A stretch of 64,000 bases of DNA from Ecdyonurus torrentis (Eukaryota > Arthropoda > Insecta > Ephemeroptera > Heptageniidae). Made by a program: the position numbers and the translations under genes. Each line of letters opens with the position of its first letter. Within the stretch, counting starts at the first letter, position 1. A model generated the notes under the pieces. That model saw nothing but the letters and a program-made list of their open reading frames with translations. It searched no databases and was not told the origin of the DNA. Shown one piece after another: positions 1 through 33,244 of the stretch. The stretch covers positions 25,390,050 through 25,454,049 of the forward strand of contig OX439135.1 in the NCBI GenBank assembly GCA_949318235.1, in the 5' to 3' direction.

Positions 1-141
1 AGAACTTGAGGGAGGGGCTTAAATTTATCACGTGACCAGAGCGGTGACTGTGATTGGCGGCAGTACATTGTGACGTCAGATACGTGATATAACAGTCAAA
101 ATGAAAAATAAATACAAAATCAACGTGTTGGTGTCTAATTC
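1..141 (+). promoter_or_regulatory. Promoter-like region upstream of first exon
   Basis: Within about 100 bases lie an E-box CACGTG (about 30-35), an inverted CCAAT box (ATTGG, about 53-57) and a full CRE-type palindrome TGACGTCA (about 71-78), followed by a short ATG exon with a donor. This cluster is unlike the AT-rich surroundings. The window starts here, so the upstream part is missing. A related copy sits at 4265-4410. No TATA box was identified. Confidence 0.5.
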
Positions 142-153
142 ATGGATAATAAG
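142..153 (+). CDS. Putative first coding exon (MDNK) of the THAP-ZAD gene
   Basis: ATG GAT AAT AAG is followed at once by a donor (GTATGG) in phase 0. That phase fits all three THAP exons, which all begin in phase 0. Joined to the first one it reads MDNK-SIEKDPLAL. Joining it directly to the common exon at 7546 makes AAG-TGA, an immediate stop, so a THAP exon must be included. The exon is very short and the choice rests on phase, donor and promoter context. The same ATG exon and donor recur in the copies at 4399-4410 (+) and in the inverted arm near 4160. Confidence 0.45.
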
Positions 154-266
154 GTATGGTGATTATCAATCTAGTATTCTAAATGATAAAATAGTAAGTT
201 GACAAGGGATTTAAGGAAAATAATTATTGATAGCTACAGTACATTAAATCAATATTTTAATTCCAG

Positions 267-751
267 TCGATTGAAAAAGACCCGTTAGCACTACGGTCAG
301 ATATAGCAGAAAATCCACGCAGTATTAAAGTAAAAAAAGATGCCAAGTGCATGAAGCACTGCTATGTGGTCGGGTGTAATTATGAAGAAAGACACAAGCG
401 AGGCTCCTTGCTTCCTAAAGACCCTACATTACAATATAAATGGCTCAAAGCTTGCGGCTATGGACCAGACTTTAAACCATACGTAAAATCATTTAGAGTT
501 TGTTTTCGTCATTTCCCCGAGGATATTCATCATGAAATATCTTGTCGTATCTTACGTCTCAAGCCAGGGTATGAAAATATGGAATGTAGATGTAGGATCT
601 TAGACAATGATCCAACCTGCGTCCCTACTTTACACTTACCTAGCAGTGCAGTTATTAGTAAAGAATTAGAAATGTGTAAGACGAGAAGAAATGAGAGAGC
701 AAAAAAGAGGGATAATAAGAAAATTGTTCAAGAACTTTTAGAGAAAGCAAG
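267..751 (+). CDS. THAP zinc finger exon 1 (alternative)
   Basis: The acceptor ends at 266 (TTTTAATTCCAG) and the donor GTACCG starts at 752. The exon is 485 bases, 3n+2. From the internal Met at 351 the THAP signature is clear: C4-x4-C9, conserved W31, then C51-x2-H54 followed by F-P, and a closing VPTLHLP that matches the family's AVPTIF box. Additional Cys residues (SCRIL, CRCRIL) lie between the C2CH module and that box. A basic, probably helical tail (RRNERAKKRDNKKIV) leads into the common linker. THAP domains are C2CH zinc modules that bind DNA. The frame is open upstream of the Met to the acceptor, which supports splicing rather than initiation at 351. Unspliced reading stops at 779. 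It most resembles the exon at 3476. Confidence 0.88.
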
Positions 752-753
752 GT

Positions 754-2515
754 ACCGTACTTTTCAATTTTATATTTAATACTAGCATGGGGCTTAATGT
801 GCTGAATTAACATATGTACCTCTTATTGTATTAGAGTACATGCAAAATATACTTTTCTAAAACTATTTTATTGTATGTATAGCTCTGGTCAAAATTTCCC
901 GAACGATTTGTATAGGCAACCCGCTGCCACAATGTTATCCTTATGAAAAAACGCAGCGGCCGCCGCTGCCCCGTTCGGCCAGAGCTGTACATGATAATAA
1001 TAAATTGAAATGCCCAAAATGTAAATTTTTTGAATACAGTAATTCTTAAAGGAACTCATTGAACAAAAAACATGTCTAAAAATACAGTACAGTACCTAAA
1101 TATAAATTGTTACTGTGCGTCAATGAGGAAATATTTATTTATTGCATTTATTTGTGTTTGAAATAAAGTTATCTAAAATGCAAAAATTTCTTTGCAACGT
1201 ACAATTAAAGATACTTCTAAATCATTATGAGTTTTAGTACAGTAAATATAATTATATTACAATAAAATCAGTTAAGAGTGTATATAATACGCTGTGCACT
1301 TTCTCTCTAGCTACGCTTTCATTTCTTTTGTCTTATTTATTCATTTCAATCTATGTAAACAAAAATAATAACAATAATAAAAAGGTGAAGTTGGGATACA
1401 ATTTGGATCTAGTACCGTATTTCCAGTGGTAGAAGTGAGGCAGGACTTGTCCCGTCATAAGAAATTTAATTAACATTGGGCTAATGGAACTTCCCTTCCT
1501 TTACCCCTAATAGTCCCGCCATAAGAGTCAAAGCCACTTCTACCCCTGCGTATTTCTATTAATTTTGTGCAACTAAATACAGTTTAGTAATTTTTTTTTA
1601 TCAATAAAGCAAAAATTATAAAAAAATAATAATAAAAATAATAAAAAAATAATAATAGGCCTAAAAAAAAAAAAAAAAAAAAAACTTACAAGTGTTTCCA
1701 GTATCTCTCATAATCAGGCTTGTATCTCAAAATCTAAAAAGAAAACTTGCAAACTTTATGATGACATTTGAAAGTTAATAGTAACAGCTACCTATGATAA
1801 CATTTTTTTTGAACTCATGACCATCAGATAAGAAAGAAAATAATTATTAAAATTAACATAGGTTCTTATGGGTCTAAAACTTCAAAAAATTATAATTTAA
1901 AATATAGCATGGTGACCCCTCAAAAAAAAAAAAAAAATACATTTTTGAAGATACTTATCCTAATGTATCACTGGGCAAAATTTCAGATTTTTCTTTCTCT
2001 ACAATTTTTTAGTCAAATCCCCTAGTACCTCCCGCCTTAAATATTTCCAGCCTATAGCTAAAAAAAAAAAAAAAAAAAAAAAAAGGTCTTGTAATGCTAA
2101 CAGATAGGAAATTAGGTAACCTTTATTGACTATACTTGTGGAACATGATGACAACAAACTCTAAAATATCAGTTATGTTTATAATTACATAAATAATCAC
2201 AATTTGTAATAAAAATAATACATGAAATAATTTTCATATTATTAAATGTTGTTTAAAATAAATATCTCTAAATTATTTGTGCGTATCAATTGTTCAACTT
2301 TATATCAGAAGAGATTAATGTTTATTGCTTCAAAGTCGGGCAATAGCTTGTTGAATTTATGTCATTACCAAAATGTTTAAGACAAAAAGTAATATTAAAA
2401 CAGACATACAGAATGGAATATCATTTGAAACAGCAGTAAATCCAAAGGAAAGGATACGAGTGTTAATATTGTAATTAAACCAATAATTAACCATAAAAAT
2501 ATTTTTTGTTATTTT
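754..2515. other. Intron between THAP exons 1 and 2, first part: small foldbacks and an H repeat
   Basis: No further coding signal was seen. Contents: a foldback of about 110 bp (about 880-992) with termini AGCTCTGG / CCAGAGCT and a GC-rich core; a short foldback at about 1425-1553 (GTGGTAGAAGTG near one end, CACTTCTACC near the other); poly(A) at 1664-1684; repeat H1 at 1706-2037; and simple AT-rich sequence. Confidence 0.5.
1706..2037 (+). repeat. Interspersed repeat H, copy 1
   Basis: It matches 52610-52945 directly and 57268-57575 in inverse orientation. Shared blocks include CTTGTATCTCAAAA at one end, AACAGCTACCTATGATAA and CATGGTGACC inside, and a CTAGTACC..CCGCCTTAA end. The layout parallels family G (23560, 52230, 54353, 59169), suggesting a common ancestor. 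No coding capacity was seen. The transposon class is undetermined. Confidence 0.6.
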
Positions 2516-2855
2516 CTACAACAATTCAATAGAAATCAGTTGTTTATTTGACTTTTCTAGCTTGGGGATAAACAAGTCCCACAAGGGTACAGATTTTTTA
2601 CTGACACAGTAACGTAAATCTACTACGTAAGATGGACAATGAAGTAAGTGGTACCTAGTACATAGGCCACCACATAAAAAACATACACATTTATCACTAC
2701 ACTCGTGATATTCCTTAATCTGACAGATTACATGGTGGAAACCATGCACCGCATAACGGGTAATAACATGCCTGTCTGTACAGTTTGGGCCTTTCCACCC
2801 ATTAATATTAAATGCAGTAGTATTATAGAAGGCCAGGCTGATATCTTCAGTTTTT
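2516..2855 (-). pseudogene. Cys/His-rich open frame, possible LINE C-terminal zinc motif
   Basis: On the minus strand a frame runs open from about 2855 to a TAG at 2516-2518. It encodes ISLAFYNTTAFNINGWKGPN, then CTDRHVITRY and CVCFLCGGLC followed by YHLLHCPSY. The pattern C-x2-CG..H-L-L-x-CP resembles the zinc-binding tail found after the reverse transcriptase of several non-LTR retrotransposons, and a similar fragment (CKLCG..YHLL.C) occurs at 30470 and 32170. No convincing acceptor or start was seen, so it is probably a truncated transposon remnant inside the THAP intron. A host 3' exon is the alternative. Confidence 0.4.
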
Positions 2856-2856
2856 A

Positions 2857-3093
2857 ATAAGGTTCGAACAGGTTTTTAAACCTGGATTTTTGCCGGGTGG
2901 TTTTTTATAAAACACCGGGCAATAAGATTTTTAAAAAACCCCTTTAAAATTCAAATTCAAATTTTCAAATTTCAAATTCAAAAATATATTTATTCATTTC
3001 TTTCATCCTACAATCAAAATACACAAAAGTGTATCCGCTTAGGTTATTGTACATTATATATACATATATACATTTACTTTAAAAAAAAACATT

Positions 3094-3160
<67 letters not shown>

Positions 3161-3419
3161 TATAGGCCCTATTAATAACAGTTGAAATTCTTAATTTACT
3201 TGTATTACTAATTACTATGAATAAATAAACCTCTATAAAATTGATATTTGATGAGGTTTATTTATTTATTTTTTTCAAATGACTAAAAACTATGCGATTT
3301 TATTATTTTTATGTTATTATTGTGAAAATTAGGAAAAAATTATTTTTTTTTTTACTTGAAATACCGGGTTTTATTAAAAAAAAAAAAAAAAAAAAAAACA
3401 GGTTTAATCCGAACCCTGA
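2857..3419. mobile_element. hAT-like non-autonomous element with internal (TA)n
   Basis: Imperfect terminal inverted repeats are seen: AAGGTTCGAACAGGTTTTTA at the left and GGTTTAATCCGAACCCTG at the right. The left end continues with AAACCTGG and GCCGGGTGG-type palindromes, and the right end has CCGGGTTTTATTAA. The interior holds a possible minus-strand LINE tail (about 2960-3060, related to 37441-37560) and a (TA)n run at 3097-3159. It ends 57 bases before THAP exon 2. No clean 8 bp target duplication was found, so the class is tentative. Confidence 0.4.
3097..3159. repeat. (TA)n microsatellite
   Basis: Uninterrupted alternating AT for about 60 bases. Confidence 0.95.
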
Positions 3420-3475
3420 AATTTATAGAGGGAGTCAGATTTAAGACATGTAACTGGGACATTGTTTACTTTCAG

Positions 3476-3969
3476 TCCAGTGAAACAGATCCGTTACAAC
3501 TTCCATCTGATGTAGAAGCTAATGCAGTGACAATCAAAGCCTCTACGTATGAGAAAAGATACGTTGGTTCTGAACAGCCTTGTCACGTAATTGGGTGTAC
3601 TCCTAAAGATAGGCACATCAGACGTTCTGGATTTCCTAAAGATCCTGTATTACGTAACAAGTGGATCAAAGCGTGCGGCTATGTGTTGCCTTATAAGCCA
3701 AATACAAAAATGAAAATTTGTTTCCGACATTTCCCTGAGGAGATTCATCATGAATTATCTTGTCGAATACTGAGACTAAAGCCAGGGTATGAGAACATGA
3801 AGTGCACGTGTCAAGTATTGAAAGTAGATCCACATTGTGTCCCCACGTTACATCTACCTGCCCATGCAGGCATTAGTCAAGAAGTAGAACACTGTAATAC
3901 AAGAAGAAATGAGAGAGCTAGAAAGAGAGAAAATAAAAAAATTGTGGATGAACTTTTAGCAAAAGCAAG
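3476..3969 (+). CDS. THAP zinc finger exon 2 (alternative)
   Basis: The acceptor TTTACTTTCAG ends at 3475 and the donor GTAATT starts at 3970. Length is 494, again 3n+2. It opens with SSETDPLQLPSD, parallel to SIEKDPLALRSD in exon 1, which fixes the acceptor. THAP module: CHVIGC (C-x4-C), KWIKACGY with the conserved Trp, ICFRHFPEE (C-x2-H) and CVPTLHLP. The basic tail (TRRNERARKRENKKIV) ends in the same KAR|GT splice context. Shared blocks such as SCRILRLKPGYENM show it is a close tandem duplicate of exon 1. If exon 1 were spliced to this exon the frame would shift and hit TAG 14 codons in. Confidence 0.88.
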
Positions 3970-3995
3970 GTAATTTTTTGTATCGTTAATTAATA

Positions 3996-4550
3996 ATCAA
4001 AGAAAAGGATAGGAGAAACTAACAAGCGCCTTACCACGATGAGGTTCGTAGCTTGGTGATGGCACAGGCTACACAAATATATTTACAAGTTTTAAATCCC
4101 TTGTCAACTTACTTTTTTATCATTTAGAATACTAGATTGATAATTACCATACCTTATTATCCATGAATAAGACACCAACACATTGATTTTGTATTTATTT
4201 TCATTATGACGGTTATTTCACGTATCTGAGGACACAATGTACCGATGGGGTCGTAATAAGGGTAAAGAACTTGAGGAAGGGGCTTCACTTTATCACGTGA
4301 CCAGAGCGGTGACTGTGATTGTCCATTGTGACGTCAGATACGTGAAATAACTGTCAAAAAGAAAATAAATACAAAATCAAGGTGTTGGTGTCTAATTCAT
4401 GGATAATAAGGTATGGTAATTATCAATCTAGTATTCTAAATGATAAAAAAGTAACTTGACAAGGGATTTAAGATGTTTCAAGCCTTCTTCTTTAGTTGCT
4501 TAGAGTGTCTCATCGTGGTCTTGTTGGTTTCTCCTGTCCTTTCCTTTGAT
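3996..4550. mobile_element. MITE family A, copy 1, carrying copies of the gene's promoter and first exon
   Basis: The ends are ATCAAAGAAAAGGATAGGAG (left) and the complement of ATCAAAGGAAAGGACAGGAG (right), with TA on both flanks (3994-3995, 4551-4552). TA duplication suggests a Tc1/mariner-type element. Family-A sequence occupies the outer parts (ACAAGCGCCTTACCACGATG; TTGCTTAGAGTG). The interior, about 4095-4475, is a palindrome: the right arm matches window bases 1-215 directly and the left arm matches about 62-215 inverted. Those copies include E-box, CRE and ATGGATAATAAG|GTATGG. Confidence 0.7.
4265..4410 (+). promoter_or_regulatory. Duplicated promoter plus ATG first exon inside the MITE
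   Basis: It retains CACGTG (about 4293), TGACGTCA (about 4331) and the ATG exon 4399-4410 with its GTATGG donor. It is nearly identical to the region at 1-153. It lies between THAP exons 2 and 3, and its donor is phase 0, so splicing 4410 to 5915 would give MDNK-IVKIYPSV in frame. Inferred: an alternative start for the THAP-3 isoform. Sequence similarity alone cannot show that it is active. The inverted arm at about 4095-4245 carries the same signals on the minus strand. Confidence 0.4.
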
Positions 4551-4847
4551 TATAAATTCAAACCAAAATGCTTTTTACCTTTCCTTATTAATTATATTTT
4601 GCATCATTAATTTGATTTGTTCATTATCTTTAACCCAGGCATGATATATATGTAACATTAATATATGCATGTTAATGTCTGCTTAAGTATAATTGTTAAC
4701 ATGCTTTCTTCTATAAGTACCTAAGCTAAGTGTACGCCTTTGTCTACAAACAAAAAGGGTTCATTATTTATAGTCACCCACTAAAGTCATTAGCAAATTA
4801 CAATTTGTATATTTCTGATTTTTACCATGATTTAACCCTCGATCAAC

Positions 4848-4878
<31 letters not shown>

Positions 4879-5267
4879 AAAAAGCAATTAAATGATTTTA
4901 AAAGTTTTGATAAACTTCTGATTTGTGACAATTATCCTACGTTTATCAAATTATATGCTGCTTTTTTAGCTCAATCCTATATGTATCAAACGTTAATAAT
5001 GTTATTTTCAAAGAAAGCAAAATGTCTATCAGACTTTATCAAAACTTGGTCAACATATTATCAGCAAATCAAAACTTTTTAACACCTTTCTCAACACTTA
5101 ATCAGAAATTATCAGCAATTCCTTTTCGATCGGGACAAGTCTTTTTTTATTATTATTATTATTTTAAACATTAAAAAATAATAAAAAGATAATTATCACA
5201 ACTGTGATAATATCCAGGTATGCAAATTCAAATTTACATTGAGTAATGAAATCCTCTCCACACATCA

Positions 5268-5406
5268 AACCAACAAGCGCCTTACCACGATGAGGTCCGC
5301 AGCTTGGTGAAAATCTTGATGGCACAGCTTACACAAATATATACAATTTTACTAAGACGTTTTAAAGGCAACAGCCTTCTTCTTCAGTTGCTTAGAGTGT
5401 CATATA
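5268..5406. mobile_element. MITE family A, truncated copy 2
   Basis: It matches the left half of family A (ACCAACAAGCGCCTTACCAC through TTGCTTAGAGTG), then stops. Neither terminal repeat is complete. It lies in the intron before THAP exon 3. The flanks 4551-5267 and 5407-5914 are AT-rich with poly(A) tracts and no other recognisable feature. Confidence 0.6.
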
Positions 5407-5914
5407 TTTTTGTCATATAATGTGATCCTTGTGTATTGTGTCAGAATGCACAAGGATCCTTGCTTGCTTCTTACTGACTTGGAGACAAACTAAGATATTC
5501 TGCAATATTAAACTTATATCATTTTGTGACTGTATCAAATTTTAATTTAGTTTTAAAAACAACATTACAAATAGATAGCAAAGAAATTTTAAACCTGCCA
5601 TCTTACTAAAAAAAAAAAAAATAAAAAAAAAAATAAAATAGAAACACTAATAAATAACAAGTACTGTACTTTTTATTTTGTATTAAAAATAAAATCAAAA
5701 CCACTGTGCTTGATTTTATATAGGCCTATTATTATTTCCTCAACAATGTTGAAGATTCATTAGGAAAATGGTTTCATCCGAGCATAAAAAATGTTATAAA
5801 TTGTTAAAGTGGTTGCATATTTTCACTTACATTTATAGTGGGGGAAAAAAAGTTAAATGAATAATAAAAAAAAAAAAAAAAGTTATTTAAATTTATAAAA
5901 TCTTGACTTTTCAG

Positions 5915-6492
5915 ATTGTTAAAATTTACCCATCTGTTGCGTCATCAGGTTTACTAGACGTAGCACGTTGCAATGACGTAGAACACACGACAGTATCAAG
6001 TAAACACAATACGTTACCCAATACAAACTCACTGGCTAAGCCCAGTGAAGAGCCCTGTATTCCAGTTGATAATGGAAGAAAAAAGAAACCATATAAAACG
6101 TGCAATGTCATGGGGTGCAGACAAAAATTTAGACATGCCAGGAGTTCTGCGTTACCATTAGATACTAAGCTTCAAAAACTGTGGTTGAAAGTTTGTGGTT
6201 ATCCCCCTAATTATAAGCCTCTGGGCAGGTACAATTTTAAAGTCTGTTTTCGTCATTTTCCTGAACAACTGCACCACGACATGCAGTGCAAAATCCAACG
6301 TACCAGTGGGAATAACAAATATAAATGTGTTTGTAAAATCTTATTCCAAGATCCAAATGCCGTCCCTTCTTTATTTTTACCTGGACAAAAAGTTTTAAGT
6401 GAAGAAGTTCAAATGTTAAAGAAAAAGAGGAAAGAAAGATTTGAAAAAAGAGAAAATAAGAAAATTGTTGAGGAATTGCTTAAAAAAGCAAG
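5915..6492 (+). CDS. THAP zinc finger exon 3 (alternative, more divergent)
   Basis: The acceptor TCTTGACTTTTCAG ends at 5914 and the donor GTAACT starts at 6493. Length is 578, 3n+2. A longer N-terminal leader of about 60 residues (Ser/Thr/Asn-rich) precedes CNVMGC (C-x4-C), the Trp in LWLKVCGY, VCFRHFPEQ (C-x2-H) and AVPSLFLP, the closest of the three to the canonical AVPTIF box. The basic tail (KRKERFEKRENKKIV) and ELLKKAR|GT junction are conserved. It is clearly homologous to exons 1 and 2 but more diverged, so the 1/2 duplication looks younger. Splicing exon 1 or 2 into it gives TAG at codon 15 after the junction. Confidence 0.88.
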
Positions 6493-6879
6493 GTAACTTT
6501 TTTCTTTCTTACATTTTAAGTAAATAAGATTTATGTTAGTTTTTCTACTGTTTATTGGAATTTTTTTTTTGTGCATCCATTAATTAATTGAGACACTTTT
6601 GTTTGTGAAAGGCTTGGACTTTCTTTGCATGTTACCTACCTGCTTTTAATTTATATTAAATGCAAATCAAAGACAAGTAATGATTATTAAAATTAAAACA
6701 CGTTTTATTGAAAGCTATATTACTCAAAAATGTGTTGTTTTTCTTGCTTAAATTAAAAGTTGCATGCTTTTGGCATGAGATTTTTTTCTTTCTTTATTAT
6801 TATTATAATTTTTTTTTTTGGTGCAGTAAAATTCTGTATATGATAAAAATAGCAAAAAGATGTATAATTTACAAATGAT

Positions 6880-7508
6880 GAAAGAATAAGGATAGGAGAA
6901 ACCAACAAGCAGCGCCTTACCACGATGAGGTCCTCACGTAGCTTGGTGAAAATCTTGCTGGCACAGGTTACACACATATTTTTACAATTTTACTAAGATG
7001 TTTCCAGGGCAACGACCCTCTTCTTCAGTTGCTTAGAGTATAGGGTGTATGCACATGACGTCATATTTATTGCGCTTGGTAGCCATACTGGAGTAGTGAA
7101 TAACATTGCTCAGCATAGGACAAACTTCATTTAAGCCAATTTTATTTGAGAAATCTGTTAATTTGTTGTTATTGTTATTTTTCTCACATACTTGAGGTAC
7201 AAATTCAACATATTTACAACATCAATGCTCTCACAAAATATTGCATAGTGTTTTTAAACTGGCAAAATGAATTATTTTCCTATGCCACCCATGTTATTGA
7301 GTTATCCAACATGGCGTCGACTTTAACATGAATGCATACACCCTATATTAAACTCTAAGCAACTGAAGAAGAAGGCTGTTGCCCTCAAAGCGTCTCTAAA
7401 CTTGTAAAAATATTTGTGTAAGCTGCCATCAGGATAGTCACCAAGCTACGTAAGGACCTCATCGTGGTAAGTAAGGCGCTCGTTGGTTTCTCCTGTCCTT
7501 TCTTTGAA
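6880..7508. mobile_element. MITE family A, copy 3, interrupted by family B
   Basis: The left end GGATAGGAGAAACCAACAAG and the right end TTGGTTTCTCCTGTCC are inverted. Inner arms (TTCTTCAGTTGCTTAGAG and CTCTAAGCAACTGAAGAA) flank a complete family B MITE at 7043-7343. The right end lies about 37 bases upstream of the acceptor of the common linker exon. Confidence 0.75.
7043..7343 (+). mobile_element. MITE family B, copy 1 (nested in family A)
   Basis: About 301 bp, bounded by GGGTGTATGC and GCATACACCC, with TATA on each side. Near the left end is GACGTCAT; inside are GGTAGCCATACTGGAGTAG and GCTCAGCATAGGACAAAC. No coding capacity. TA or TATA duplication points to a Tc1/mariner-like or related transposase supplied in trans. 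Confidence 0.85.
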
Positions 7509-7545
7509 TTTCTTTGCTCTAAGGTATTGTGTTCTATTTTTATAG

Positions 7546-7741
7546 TGAAGAGGACAGGAAGAAAAAAGAGGAAAAGGAAAGAGAGAAACAATTATTAGAG
7601 GATTGGAGTGAAGAGGAGGAGGAGAAGAGTGGGGGAGCAAGTGACAGTTTGCTGTATCAGCTGCTTCAAAGTAGAGAGGAATCTGCACCACAGTTTGCTG
7701 TGGACATGGACCAGTTTGGTCATGAAGAGGAGGATTTAGAG
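7546..7741 (+). CDS. Common linker exon, highly charged
   Basis: The acceptor ATTTTTATAG ends at 7545 and the donor GTACAT starts at 7742. The first base completes the codon left open by each THAP exon (AG+T, Ser). It encodes EEDRKKKEEKEREKQLLEDW, then an acidic stretch, then a segment ending GHEEEDLE. With the basic helix from the THAP exons it likely forms a charged, coiled-coil-like spacer. The exon ends in phase 0. A nested MITE (6880-7508) ends only about 37 bases before the acceptor. The opposite-strand frames here are shadows. Confidence 0.82.
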
Positions 7742-8067: not shown

Positions 8068-8358
8068 ATGTTCTCTGAGTCTGAACCAGAAGTAACGTCT
8101 GACACAGATGACCCTGACTACGTGCCTTACTCCCCTGAGATGCAGATTGAGGTTGACCCTCACGATCTCCTACAAGGTCACACTCCAGAGGAAGCTACAA
8201 TGATGGACCACACGTCTTTAGAACCAACGTCAGATAATCCTGCAGCCAAGTTGTGTCGTGTATGTGCGTGTCCTGCGTTTGATATGGTGCAAGTTTTTAG
8301 TGAAGAAGGCAGAGACTTGCAACTGCAGGATAAGATTTCACTGTGCTTACCTATCAAG
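8068..8358 (+). CDS. ZAD exon, first half (acidic leader plus first Cys pair)
   Basis: The acceptor TTGTCCTCAG ends at 8067, the donor GTGAGA starts at 8359, and both ends are phase 0 (97 codons). An acidic leader with Pro and Tyr (TDDPDYVPYSPEM) is followed by KLCRVCACPAFDMVQVFSEE, where C63 and C66 form the first C-x2-C pair of a zf-AD (ZAD) domain. The second pair is in the next exon. An intron splitting the ZAD between its Cys pairs explains why neither exon alone looks complete. In known members ZAD mediates dimerisation. Confidence 0.85.
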
Positions 8359-8671: not shown

Positions 8672-8962
8672 ATTAATAATAATAATAATAATAGTAATGG
8701 TCTGGTTAGCAAGGATTGGTTAAAAGCAAGAGAAAAGTTAAACCTCGAGCACAGGCATTTACGTGTCATGCAGAAAGCTGCAGTTCTTGGCACAGCTAAC
8801 ATCGTGCGCAAAGTGCTTAGTTTGTGACCCCTCTGTATACCATCTGCAGTTTCTGATATAATTGGTACTGGATTATTCTCACCTTCACCTTGAATCAAGT
8901 AGGATTCCGGTGTTGGTGTTACACAAGAAGACAGAAAAAAACTCATAATAATAATAATAATG
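8672..8962 (+). mobile_element. Dong/R4-like LINE 3' fragment flanked by (TAA)n
   Basis: A (AAT)n run at 8672-8693 leads into an open frame encoding LEHRHLRVMQKAAVLGTANI then VRKVLSL and a stop at 8825-8827. The pattern QK..LLGTA.I.RK.L at a C-terminus is typical of R4/Dong-type non-LTR retrotransposons as I recall them. About 115 bases of 3' UTR follow and end in another (ATA)n run at 8944-8962. Dong-type elements target TAA repeats, which matches the flanks. It is a 5'-truncated, inactive copy within the ZAD intron. Confidence 0.55.
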
Positions 8963-9069: not shown

Positions 9070-9204
9070 CCCCACGAGGATGATATTCTGCCGCTGAACG
9101 TGTGCAGGGAGTGTGTGCGACGTCTAGAGGCCAGTTACTTTCTCTTCACCACATGTGAGCACGCAGACGTCACTCTCAGGTGTTTGATGGACTTACCTCC
9201 ACAG
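9070..9204 (+). CDS. ZAD exon, second half
   Basis: The acceptor GATGTGACAG ends at 9069 and the donor GTGAGT starts at 9205. It has 45 codons, phase 0 at both ends. It encodes DDILPLNVCRECVRRLEASY, with C12-x2-C15 as the second ZAD Cys pair after the usual LP. ASYFLFTTCEHADVTL then matches the C-terminal helix pattern of ZAD (aromatic, Cys, then Ala/Ser-Asp and Leu). Together with the 8068 exon it gives a complete C2..C2 ZAD. Confidence 0.85.
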
Positions 9205-13456: not shown

Positions 13457-14668
13457 CCCAAAGAAAGTTCAGCCCAATGTTCCAACTGTGACACCCAAGA
13501 CCAACTTACAGCCATGAAAACCACTGAGCCCACATTAGAAGAGCCCAATCCTACCATAGAGCCCAACACTTACACAGAATACACTTGCGATCATTGCGAC
13601 GTAAACTTCAGTAGCAAACTGATATTAGTTGAACATTTAATTACAAAACATAAGATGAACTGCCAGCTGTGTCAATATTATACATTTAGTCACGACATTA
13701 AGCAATTAGACAACCACTTTGTCAAACATCATATTGAGAACACAGAGGAAACTCACCTATTTACGTCAAAATATCTGCACTTCAAAAAACTGGAAAAAGA
13801 AAGCAAAAAATTAAAAATCCCTAAAGAAATCCCCACCCCTGAAATAATCCCTAAAAAAATTAAACCAAATCCAATAAAATTTGAAGCTGCATATAATTAT
13901 CCATGTAAAAATTGTAACTTGACGTTTAAGTATAAATTAGAATTAAAATCACATTATGAAATTAATCATTCGTTATATTTATGTCATAAAAATGAATGTT
14001 TTGATTTATTTCATAACGAAGATCAGTTACATGAACATTTGAAATCTCATTCGTTGCACACGTCTGCTAAATTGTGTCCTCGGTGCGGGATAACTTTTAA
14101 AAATCTGGTAACCTTAGAGGATCACATTTATCATGATCATGATTACCAGCCTGAGAAATATGATTGTAAAATATGTAGTAAGAAATATAAATCAGTGAAT
14201 AGTTATAAGATGCATATGAAAAAACATGAAGCTAAATCGTTAGAAAAAGAATATATTTGCGATAATTGTGAAAAAATATTTACAAATAAAAACTCAATTA
14301 AAAATCATATTAAAAATGTTCATGGTATTAAGAAATTTAGTTGTAAACGTTGTAAGAAAGTTTTTGTTAACAGAAAAAGTTTGGATGTTCATAAAGATAA
14401 AGTTCATTCTAATTGTTGGATTTACCATTGTCAGGTGTGTGACGCAGCGTACAGAGGTTTTAAATCTGTAAGAGAACATTATAATACACATTCTAACACT
14501 GAAGTAACAAAATGTTCCAGTAAAAATATGTTTTATAGAACTTCTAAATACCAGTGTGTCATCTGTCTGGAGTATTTTCAAAATAACAATAAATTTATTT
14601 TACATTTAAAACCAATGCATGGGATTTCTGAGGCGGAATATCGCGAAGATGTTCAAGCAACTTTTTAA
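13457..14668 (+). CDS. Terminal exon with about ten C2H2 zinc fingers
   Basis: The acceptor TTTTTTGTTACAG ends at 13456. The frame is phase 0 and runs 403 codons to TAA at 14666-14668. C2H2 modules in order start at YTCDHC, NCQLC, YPCKNC, YLCHKNEC (C-x4-C), KLCPRC, YDCKIC, YICDNC, FSCKRC, YHCQVC and YQCVIC, spread from about residue 44 to residue 390. A Lys/Pro/Ile-rich linker without fingers separates the second and third. Most fingers lack TGEKP linkers, typical of arthropod ZAD proteins. AATAAA overlaps the stop codon (14668-14673) and a GT-rich stretch follows. Confidence 0.9.
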   Translation, partial: PKESSAQCSNCDTQDQLTAMKTTEPTLEEPNPTIEPNTYTEYTCDHCDVNFSSKLILVEHLITKHKMNCQLCQYYTFSHDIKQLDNHFVKHHIENTEETHLFTSKYLHFKKLEKESKKLKIPKEIPTPEIIPKKIKPNPIKFEAAYNYPCKNCNLTFKYKLELKSHYEINHSLYLCHKNECFDLFHNEDQLHEHLKSHSLHTSAKLCPRCGITFKNLVTLEDHIYHDHDYQPEKYDCKICSKKYKSVNSYKMHMKKHEAKSLEKEYICDNCEKIFTNKNSIKNHIKNVHGIKKFSCKRCKKVFVNRKSLDVHKDKVHSNCWIYHCQVCDAAYRGFKSVREHYNTHSNTEVTKCSSKNMFYRTSKYQCVICLEYFQNNNKFILHLKPMHGISEAEYREDVQATF

Positions 14669-32099: not shown

Positions 32100-32265
32100 C
32101 ACACATGGTGTACAACATTATAACCTAAATTAACAAAATAATAATAGTAAATTCCATACATAAACCTTACTCTTGAGCATAAGCTGTTAGGCTAATGCTA
32201 CGTTTAGTACATTCCAGCCAATGATATTAATCACATGGCTCACCACACAATTTACATTTACATTA
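32100..32265 (-). pseudogene. LINE-like C-terminal fragment, inverted copy
   Basis: On the minus strand it reads CKLCGEPCD, stop, YHWLECTKRSISLTAYAQ. It is homologous to 30462-30632 in opposite orientation, with decayed coding. Confidence 0.4.
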
Positions 32266-32269
32266 GGTA

Positions 32270-33244
32270 CCAGACTCGTGCTACTCTTTAATTATGCAAA
32301 TCTTATGATAAAAAACGTGCCTTGCGAATCGAGTAAAAATGTGCCTATTTTTAAAATTTGGATTTTTCCAATTAACATTATCAAAGGCCGGGGTATTGTA
32401 AAATGATATAGGTTGATTTAAGTTATCAATAATAGTAAAAAATAAAAATAAAAAAACTTGTACACAATGACACATATTGACCTATTGACACTTTTTCTTG
32501 TCAGTATAAGAAAACGTAGAGCAGGTGATTGCGCACAAAAGTTTTATCTATATTTATTTTACACTCTTCACGTACAATTATGATATAAGATAGATCACGC
32601 TACATGTTGTGTGTGCTATCAGATATCAAGTTGAACATGACGTGATTTTTATATAACATCGTATGACAAATTACTAGTAATTGGAATTTGACACGCGGGT
32701 GCAATGAATGAGTGCTGGCTGATCTATACTTCCTATCCTCTGGCATGAAGTATGGCTGTTTATCACATGATTCGCTTTATCATGAAGCATAATGGGAAAA
32801 TACCTATATATGATTAAATCTCATGAATATCTTATAATTATATAATATTACCTTTATGATTTTTTTCGCAGTAATTACAAGTGCTGTATTTGTCAATATT
32901 CATTGGCTATTGCTTGTTGCCTTGTAAATTTAATTATTTTTTTTTATTAAAATTTATTAATGATATAATATGTATACTAAAACTCATATAAGCGTATGTT
33001 TTGGATATATATAAAATTACAATTTTTATTTATTTATATAATATGTATAATATTGAAATTTTCTTTTATTTTTAATTTTTAATATTATTATTAAACGTAG
33101 TTATTATTTTAATAATTTAATTAATTTATTTTTTATTAGTTTTCATAATTTATTGATCTCTATGATTAATTCAAAACTTGTGCAGTTGTAACATTGTACT
33201 AGGGTTTAAACAATACGTAAAAGTATGCATAGTAATTCTCATTG
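32270..33244. other. AT-rich stretch, nothing recognised
   Basis: No gene, terminal repeat or dispersed family was identified. Confidence 0.4.

Follow-up and report, generated by a model that had tools for sequence, protein, structure and literature searches.

A candidate cluster of three mutually exclusive THAP exons in a predicted ZAD zinc finger gene of the mayfly Ecdyonurus torrentis

Described exon clusters and the mayfly locus

In the UGT1A and protocadherin clusters the variable exon is chosen by the promoter, and in Dscam the docking site is near the constitutive upstream exon. Clusters of the Dscam exon 6 type combine docking near that upstream exon with a selector upstream of the variable exon, and clusters larger than three exons are beyond what decay can account for (PMC6071210). 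Among human clusters of mutually exclusive exons, 377 of 629 (60%) consist of exons that are not divisible by three (PMC5740500). Mutually exclusive first exons are described for the DAL19-clade MADS-box genes of Picea abies (PMC6243048), and a THAP domain occurs in the Drosophila ZAD-ZNF genes CG6689 and CG10431 (PMC9810180). Control by docking and selector sites is already known, as are the swapping of domains through exclusive exons and the presence of THAP in ZAD-ZNF genes. Here, a stretch of 64,000 nucleotides (nt) from the mayfly Ecdyonurus torrentis (contig OX439135.1, positions 25,390,050 to 25,454,049 of the forward strand; the window) was analyzed, in which a predicted THAP-zfAD-C2H2 gene appears to carry three THAP exons (A, B, and C) that arose by tandem duplication and form a mutually exclusive cluster, a reading to which we give somewhat better than an even chance. 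Positions refer to the window unless prefixed with C17, and a slash marks the end of an exon.

THAP exons, shared exons and their reading frames

The three THAP exons precede four exons that they would have in common (Table 1). Each THAP exon has an AG acceptor and an AAG/GT donor and is in frame after a phase-0 exon; the phase-0 start, the 3n+2 length and the AG before GT, all claimed by the first-pass annotation, proved correct when coordinates and arithmetic were recomputed. Homologous tandem exons with equal phases, one mark of a mutually exclusive exon cluster, are present in A, B, and C. After one THAP exon (2 mod 3), the frame comes back in register through the exon at 7546-7741 (1 mod 3), which does supply the missing base as had been stated. 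Omitting all THAP exons leads to TGA at once, joining A to B to a stop 13 codons into the second exon, joining A or B to C to a stop after 14 codons (in agreement with the TAG codons reported before), and A+B+C, with a sum of 0 mod 3, to an early stop too, and the assertion that exactly one THAP exon keeps the frame thus holds against zero, two, and three. As four exons of 3n+2 would be in frame again, three is the maximum that can be policed by frame alone. The AAG-TGA junction that was said to follow MDNK when all three are skipped does give an immediate stop, which is nothing particular to MDNK, because the common exon begins with TGA and any phase-0 upstream exon would meet it. The introns after A, B, and C are 2724, 1945, and 1053 nt long, with the donors GTACCG, GTAATT, and GTAACT; neither U12-type introns nor introns too short for double splicing are suggested by these donors and lengths.

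Matches to the Pfam THAP domain (PF05485) reached 35.3, 35.9, and 30.9 bits in A, B, and C (cut-off 23.9). The two zf-AD halves gave 37.7 bits when joined (cut-off 28), either half alone staying under the cut-off, and their joining across introns was deduced from the open phase-0 exons. C2H2 fingers were found by Pfam in 13457-14668, the exon after the zf-AD halves, which is the arrangement of a ZAD-ZNF gene. In the alignment, amino-acid identity was 61% between A and B and 46% between A and C, and all three have a similar tail (NKKIV.ELL.KA) and a phase-2 donor. Non-synonymous and synonymous divergence (dN/dS, by the NG86 method only) of THAP plus tail was 0.23/1.45 = 0.16 for A-B, 0.43/1.75 = 0.24 for A-C, and 0.44/2.55 = 0.17 for B-C; judged by these ratios, the THAP parts are old and under purifying selection, with synonymous sites near saturation. 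An AlphaFold model of THAP A (three-sequence alignment) was poor, with a mean predicted local distance difference test score of 47, and the sequence search of the PDB returned a single match (E 0.4).

In the 503 Mb genome, 77 THAP matches were retrieved (E up to 0.001), of which A, B, and C are the only ones at this locus, no fourth THAP exon being detected there at that threshold; the next match downstream on the chromosome is ~141 kb off. Some of the 77 matches hold stops and some score identically on different contigs, so a fraction may be transposase-related.

A genome search with the THAP part of A returned A, B, and C plus one further relative (C17:8398332-8398658). The paralogue locus (C17:8386000-8405999), 17 Mb away, has just one THAP exon, with an ATG of its own at the start (404 nt counted from there, 3n+2, donor TCTAG/GTAATT), followed by relatives of both zf-AD halves (51% and 48% identical, split at the corresponding place) and, at the end, by a C2H2 open reading frame, all on one strand and in the same order as in the window gene. 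Since the same domain order is found at two loci 17 Mb apart, THAP and zfAD-C2H2 can be argued to form one transcript, and the comparison supports a single THAP-zfAD-C2H2 transcription-factor gene in the window. As the THAP exon of the paralogue is also 3n+2, the phase-2 end would be inherited and not evolved as a lock; with this single exon sharing the phase-2 end, and with exons not divisible by three in 377 of 629 human clusters (PMC5740500), the frame "lock" does not specially point to design. The exon-choice gene proposed by the first-pass annotation was therefore retained in part: frames, selection pattern, and paralogue agree with three alternative THAP exons, and the frame lock adds no special evidence to them.

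Table 1. Positions of the exons, candidate exons, repeat copies and candidate pairing sites discussed in the text
Feature	Position	Strand	Remarks
THAP exon A	267-751	+	485 nt, 3n+2; in-frame ATG at 351 directly before the zinc motif (MKHCYVVGC)
THAP exon B	3476-3969	+	494 nt, 3n+2; zinc motif without in-frame ATG before it
THAP exon C	5915-6492	+	578 nt, 3n+2; zinc motif without in-frame ATG before it
Common charged exon	7546-7741	+	196 nt, 3n+1; TGA first if read from a phase-0 exon
Common exon, acidic linker and first half of zf-AD (ZAD)	8068-8358	+	phase 0, open frame
Common exon, second half of zf-AD	9070-9204	+	phase 0, open frame
Last common coding exon, C2H2 zinc fingers and stop	13457-14668	+	phase 0, open frame
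Right arm of palindromic, TTAA-flanked miniature inverted-repeat transposable element (MITE)	1-214	+	holds the MDNK "exon" (142-153); left arm just before the window
Second full MITE copy	4092-4471	+	nested in another repeat (about 3979-4558)
ATGGATAATAAG/GT in second MITE copy	4399-4412; 4151-4164	+; -	
Possible start mini-exon MDNE before exon B, ATGGACAATGAA/GTAAGT	2632-2643	+	weak; antisense on an open reading frame with a decayed relative
Candidate start exon MALNFQYQ	C17:25388180-25388203		phase 0, single-copy DNA, 1.87 kb before the window
Candidate selector	5779-5797	+	117 nt before exon C; perfect 19-nt complement of the upstream site
Candidate docking site	C17:25388365-25388383		window -1684 to -1666; ~160 nt past the MALNFQYQ donor; 1.68 kb before the window

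Start exons, intronic pairing and competing explanations

The start of the gene had previously been placed in an MDNK exon with an upstream promoter (1-215). This stretch turned out to belong to a palindromic transposable element with many copies, of which it forms one arm: the sequence of 1-215 is found again at 4266-4472 and inverted at 4092-4242, the inverted left arm directly precedes the window, and a further full copy lies ~4 kb upstream. The MDNK copies at 4399-4410 (+) and 4151-4164 (-) and the ATGGACAATGAA/GTAAGT site at 2632-2643 were missing from that account. A genome search for the MITE gave 2232 first-look candidates, the best 40 of which (window copy included) were scored; all 40 were at least 95% identical, and, of 34 partial matches on the opposite strand, those that were compared adjoined a full match. 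Both palindrome ends were present in 19 of the 20 loci examined (length 380-408 base pairs, bp), TTAA in 15/19 at the left end and 17/19 at the right end (the search pattern included TTAA and allowed 4 substitutions), and the exact "exon" ATGGATAATAAGGTATGG in 15 of the 20, window copy included. The copies are 3-9% diverged, and by these counts the MDNK-bearing element is a young, high-copy, TTAA-flanked MITE. Set against an A-B dS of ~1.5, this divergence makes the THAP triplication far older, so MDNK was not the original start of the gene; as MITE sequence it was rejected in that role, and the gene may have come to use it later. A duplicated promoter plus first exon for each THAP exon lost weight for the same reason, and promoter calling by CpG content gave no clear signal. 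To the eye, a high-copy MITE in which an ATG and a phase-0 splice donor happen to be present can look like a first exon.

THAP proteins usually start where the ATG of exon A (351) lies. In exons B and C, the zinc motif is not preceded by any in-frame ATG, and a start exon must therefore lie upstream. A gene with NAD_binding_4 and Sterile domains, which we take to be fatty acyl-CoA reductase-like, ends 3.7 kb before the window, so the search for the true start was bounded there. Donors were scored with an approximate matrix, and candidates were those with a score of at least 1.29, an in-frame ATG, and a phase-0 end. Six upstream donors qualified; three of them are inside the MITE (best score 4.58), and the best of the three outside it is ATGGCGTTGAATTTTCAGTATCAG/GTATGA (MALNFQYQ, score 4.47, start context AAAAACATGG), the same matrix giving 1.48, 2.97, and 3.93 for the THAP donors. 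We infer that MALNFQYQ is the best candidate for the host start exon. As a separate observation, the upstream MITE copy (about C17:25385656-25386046) stops ~17 nt short of what looks like the acceptor of the final exon in the reductase-like gene, and the window copy likewise ends ~50 nt before THAP exon A.

With repeats and low-complexity runs masked, no perfectly complementary stretch shared by two introns of the cluster is longer than a 19-nt match (ATAACATTTTTTATGCTCG), which connects the candidate docking site with the candidate selector before exon C. This length was reached by 0/200 shuffles of that intron pair and by 0/1000 dinucleotide shuffles over all six intron pairs (repeats masked). 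The exact 19-mer occurs twice in 503 Mb, once per strand and at these two sites (reversed control 0), and the flanks of both sites are single copy, except for one extra 35-nt match on the C side. Its layout resembles that of the docking and selector sites of Dscam exon 6 (PMC6071210), and as a docking/selector pair the 19-nt match is suggestive.

Under the exon choice that we favor, the transcript would begin before the window with a host start exon (MALNFQYQ being the best candidate), which would be joined to one of A, B, and C, and this THAP exon in turn to 7546. Wrong joins with zero, two, or three THAP exons would run into early stops, the frame tolerating exactly one, and for exon C, pairing of the two 19-nt intronic sites may draw the start exon to C while looping out A and B. 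The splicing choice among A, B, and C, the role of the 19-nt pairing, and nonsense decay are steps that we infer. A more elaborate version, in which an RNA-structure switch (docking-selector, for exon C) would pick one of three THAP heads while the second DNA-binding region stays constant, and in which MITEs would later have added portable in-phase start exons as a second, promoter-driven route, seems doubtful to us.

Several observations weigh against the exon choice. The N-terminal extensions are unconstrained between A and C (1.67/1.58 = 1.06) and between B and C (1.15/0.88 = 1.31), the alignment being doubtful; those of A and B are constrained (0.46/1.75 = 0.26, NG86), and in all three extensions (31, 35, and 62 codons) it is still the coding frame alone that is without stops (joint P 2.5e-4 from base composition). 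MALNFQYQ is just 8 codons long, and the MITE donor scores slightly higher (4.58 vs. 4.47 on the approximate matrix). Strong pairing was found for C alone and not as several selectors competing for one docking site, as the region upstream of B has no strong partner and that upstream of A a weak one of 15 bp (with G-U). Equally good inverted matches are held by 54 of 93 same-geometry placements in the neighborhood with repeats unmasked, which is due to the repeats. Counting this one, the 84 kb examined contains eight isolated exact pairs with a length of at least 19 nt and partners no more than 10 kb apart, the other seven spanning at most 2.5 kb, and the units share no intronic motif of at least 30 nt outside repeats and low-complexity runs.

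The main rival explanation is that A, B, and C are under alternative promoters, each with its own start mini-exon (MDNK at 142, MDNE at 2632, MDNK at 4399), the MITE copies being co-opted promoters that carry a start codon and a phase-0 donor; we consider this unlikely, though well worth weighing. Each THAP exon is indeed preceded by a phase-0 start mini-exon (from the MITE for A and C, the 2632 site for B), the MITE donor exceeds all three THAP donors on the approximate matrix, and CACGTG and TGACGTCA are present in the MITE. MDNK or MDNE directly before GT was obtained in the A-B intron by 0/2000 shuffles, and MDNx/GT by 7/2000, for a pattern that was chosen after seeing it. Precedents are the large-scale co-option of MITE promoters in Caenorhabditis (PMC9757741) and the swapping of the MADS domain by first exons in Picea DAL19 (PMC6243048). 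However, an element with many copies, 15 of the 20 loci examined having an identical "exon", did not arise to serve this gene, the triplication predates the MITE copies by the divergences given above, and the 2632 site is antisense on an open reading frame with a decayed relative (32188-32436). An alternative-first-exon cluster of the UGT1A kind has a start codon and a promoter for each variable exon, and here an ATG before the zinc motif is found in A alone; a version spread over two exons, in which the start mini-exons are separate, is conceivable.

Less probable still is that only one THAP exon joins zfAD-C2H2, the remaining two being short THAP genes in their own right or terminating through intronic polyadenylation, which we rate as improbable. 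Reading through the donor would meet a stop after 9 further codons in A and immediately in B and C (AGG-TAA), the introns are rich in AATAAA (as expected at 29% G+C), and the genome holds many THAP copies (the 77 matches). Yet all three exons keep the phase-2 donor and the similar tail, THAP and tail are under purifying selection, and B and C are without an ATG of their own before the zinc motif. The faintest chance goes to leaky splicing without regulated choice, in which the duplicates would inherit the ancestral phase-2 arithmetic, the nearest exon would win and the rest decay, an account in line with the 3n+2 length in the paralogue, the low THAP donor scores on the approximate matrix, and the frequency of human clusters with exons not divisible by three (PMC5740500), but at odds with purifying selection on three copies at dS >1, which suggests that all are used.

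Other elements were noted in and around the window. The open 119-codon frame beneath the 2632 site (2519-2875, -) is cysteine- and histidine-rich, has a relative with stops at 32188-32436 (-) and no Pfam match, and is probably a transposon remnant. A second repeat family (3979-4558, 5267-5406, and 6861-7505) flanks exon C with inverted arms located beside the B donor and the shared acceptor, making pairing across exon C possible. Such arms were considered as splicing bridges (3979-4091 with 7398-7507, -131 kcal/mol; 5267-5406 with 7344-7489, -187 kcal/mol), a possible role, but the hairpin formed locally ahead of the common exon is stronger (-229 kcal/mol). Upstream of the window lies an open frame of 1126 codons in which a reverse transcriptase domain was found (1578-4958, -, of the upstream segment L005), and its last 43 residues recur by eye at about 8696-8824 (+), between the zf-AD halves, as a truncated copy.

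Comparison with known systems

If the exon choice is real, one gene would give rise to three regulators with a common zfAD and common fingers, the heads of which may read different DNA, a compact way of retargeting. In open-licence titles and abstract beginnings, no case of three THAP heads on one ZAD-ZNF gene was found among the matches listed. CG6689 resembles the window gene in having an N-terminal THAP in a ZAD-ZNF protein, and differs from it, as does CG10431, in having one THAP domain (in CG6689, in the first two exons), with no exon cluster described there (PMC9810180). In the Dscam exon 6 comparison, the window cluster has one convincing selector (for C), and Dscam is a cell-surface protein, so that no DNA-binding domain is exchanged (PMC6071210). 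The human frame-locked exons are alike in that double inclusion leads to a frame shift and an early stop (PMC5740500), and differ in that the present case would concern another animal and a DNA-binding domain. With three exons of 3n+2, the mayfly cluster would have the largest size that can be kept exclusive by reading frame alone, and it sits at the limit given for decay-policed exclusivity (PMC6071210). The DAL19-clade genes also swap the DNA-binding domain of a transcription factor through exclusive N-terminal exons on a common core, but they belong to a plant and their first exons imply separate promoters (PMC6243048), whereas B and C in the window need an upstream start exon; next to them, the mayfly gene would provide an animal example in which the unit exchanged is an entire DNA-binding domain.

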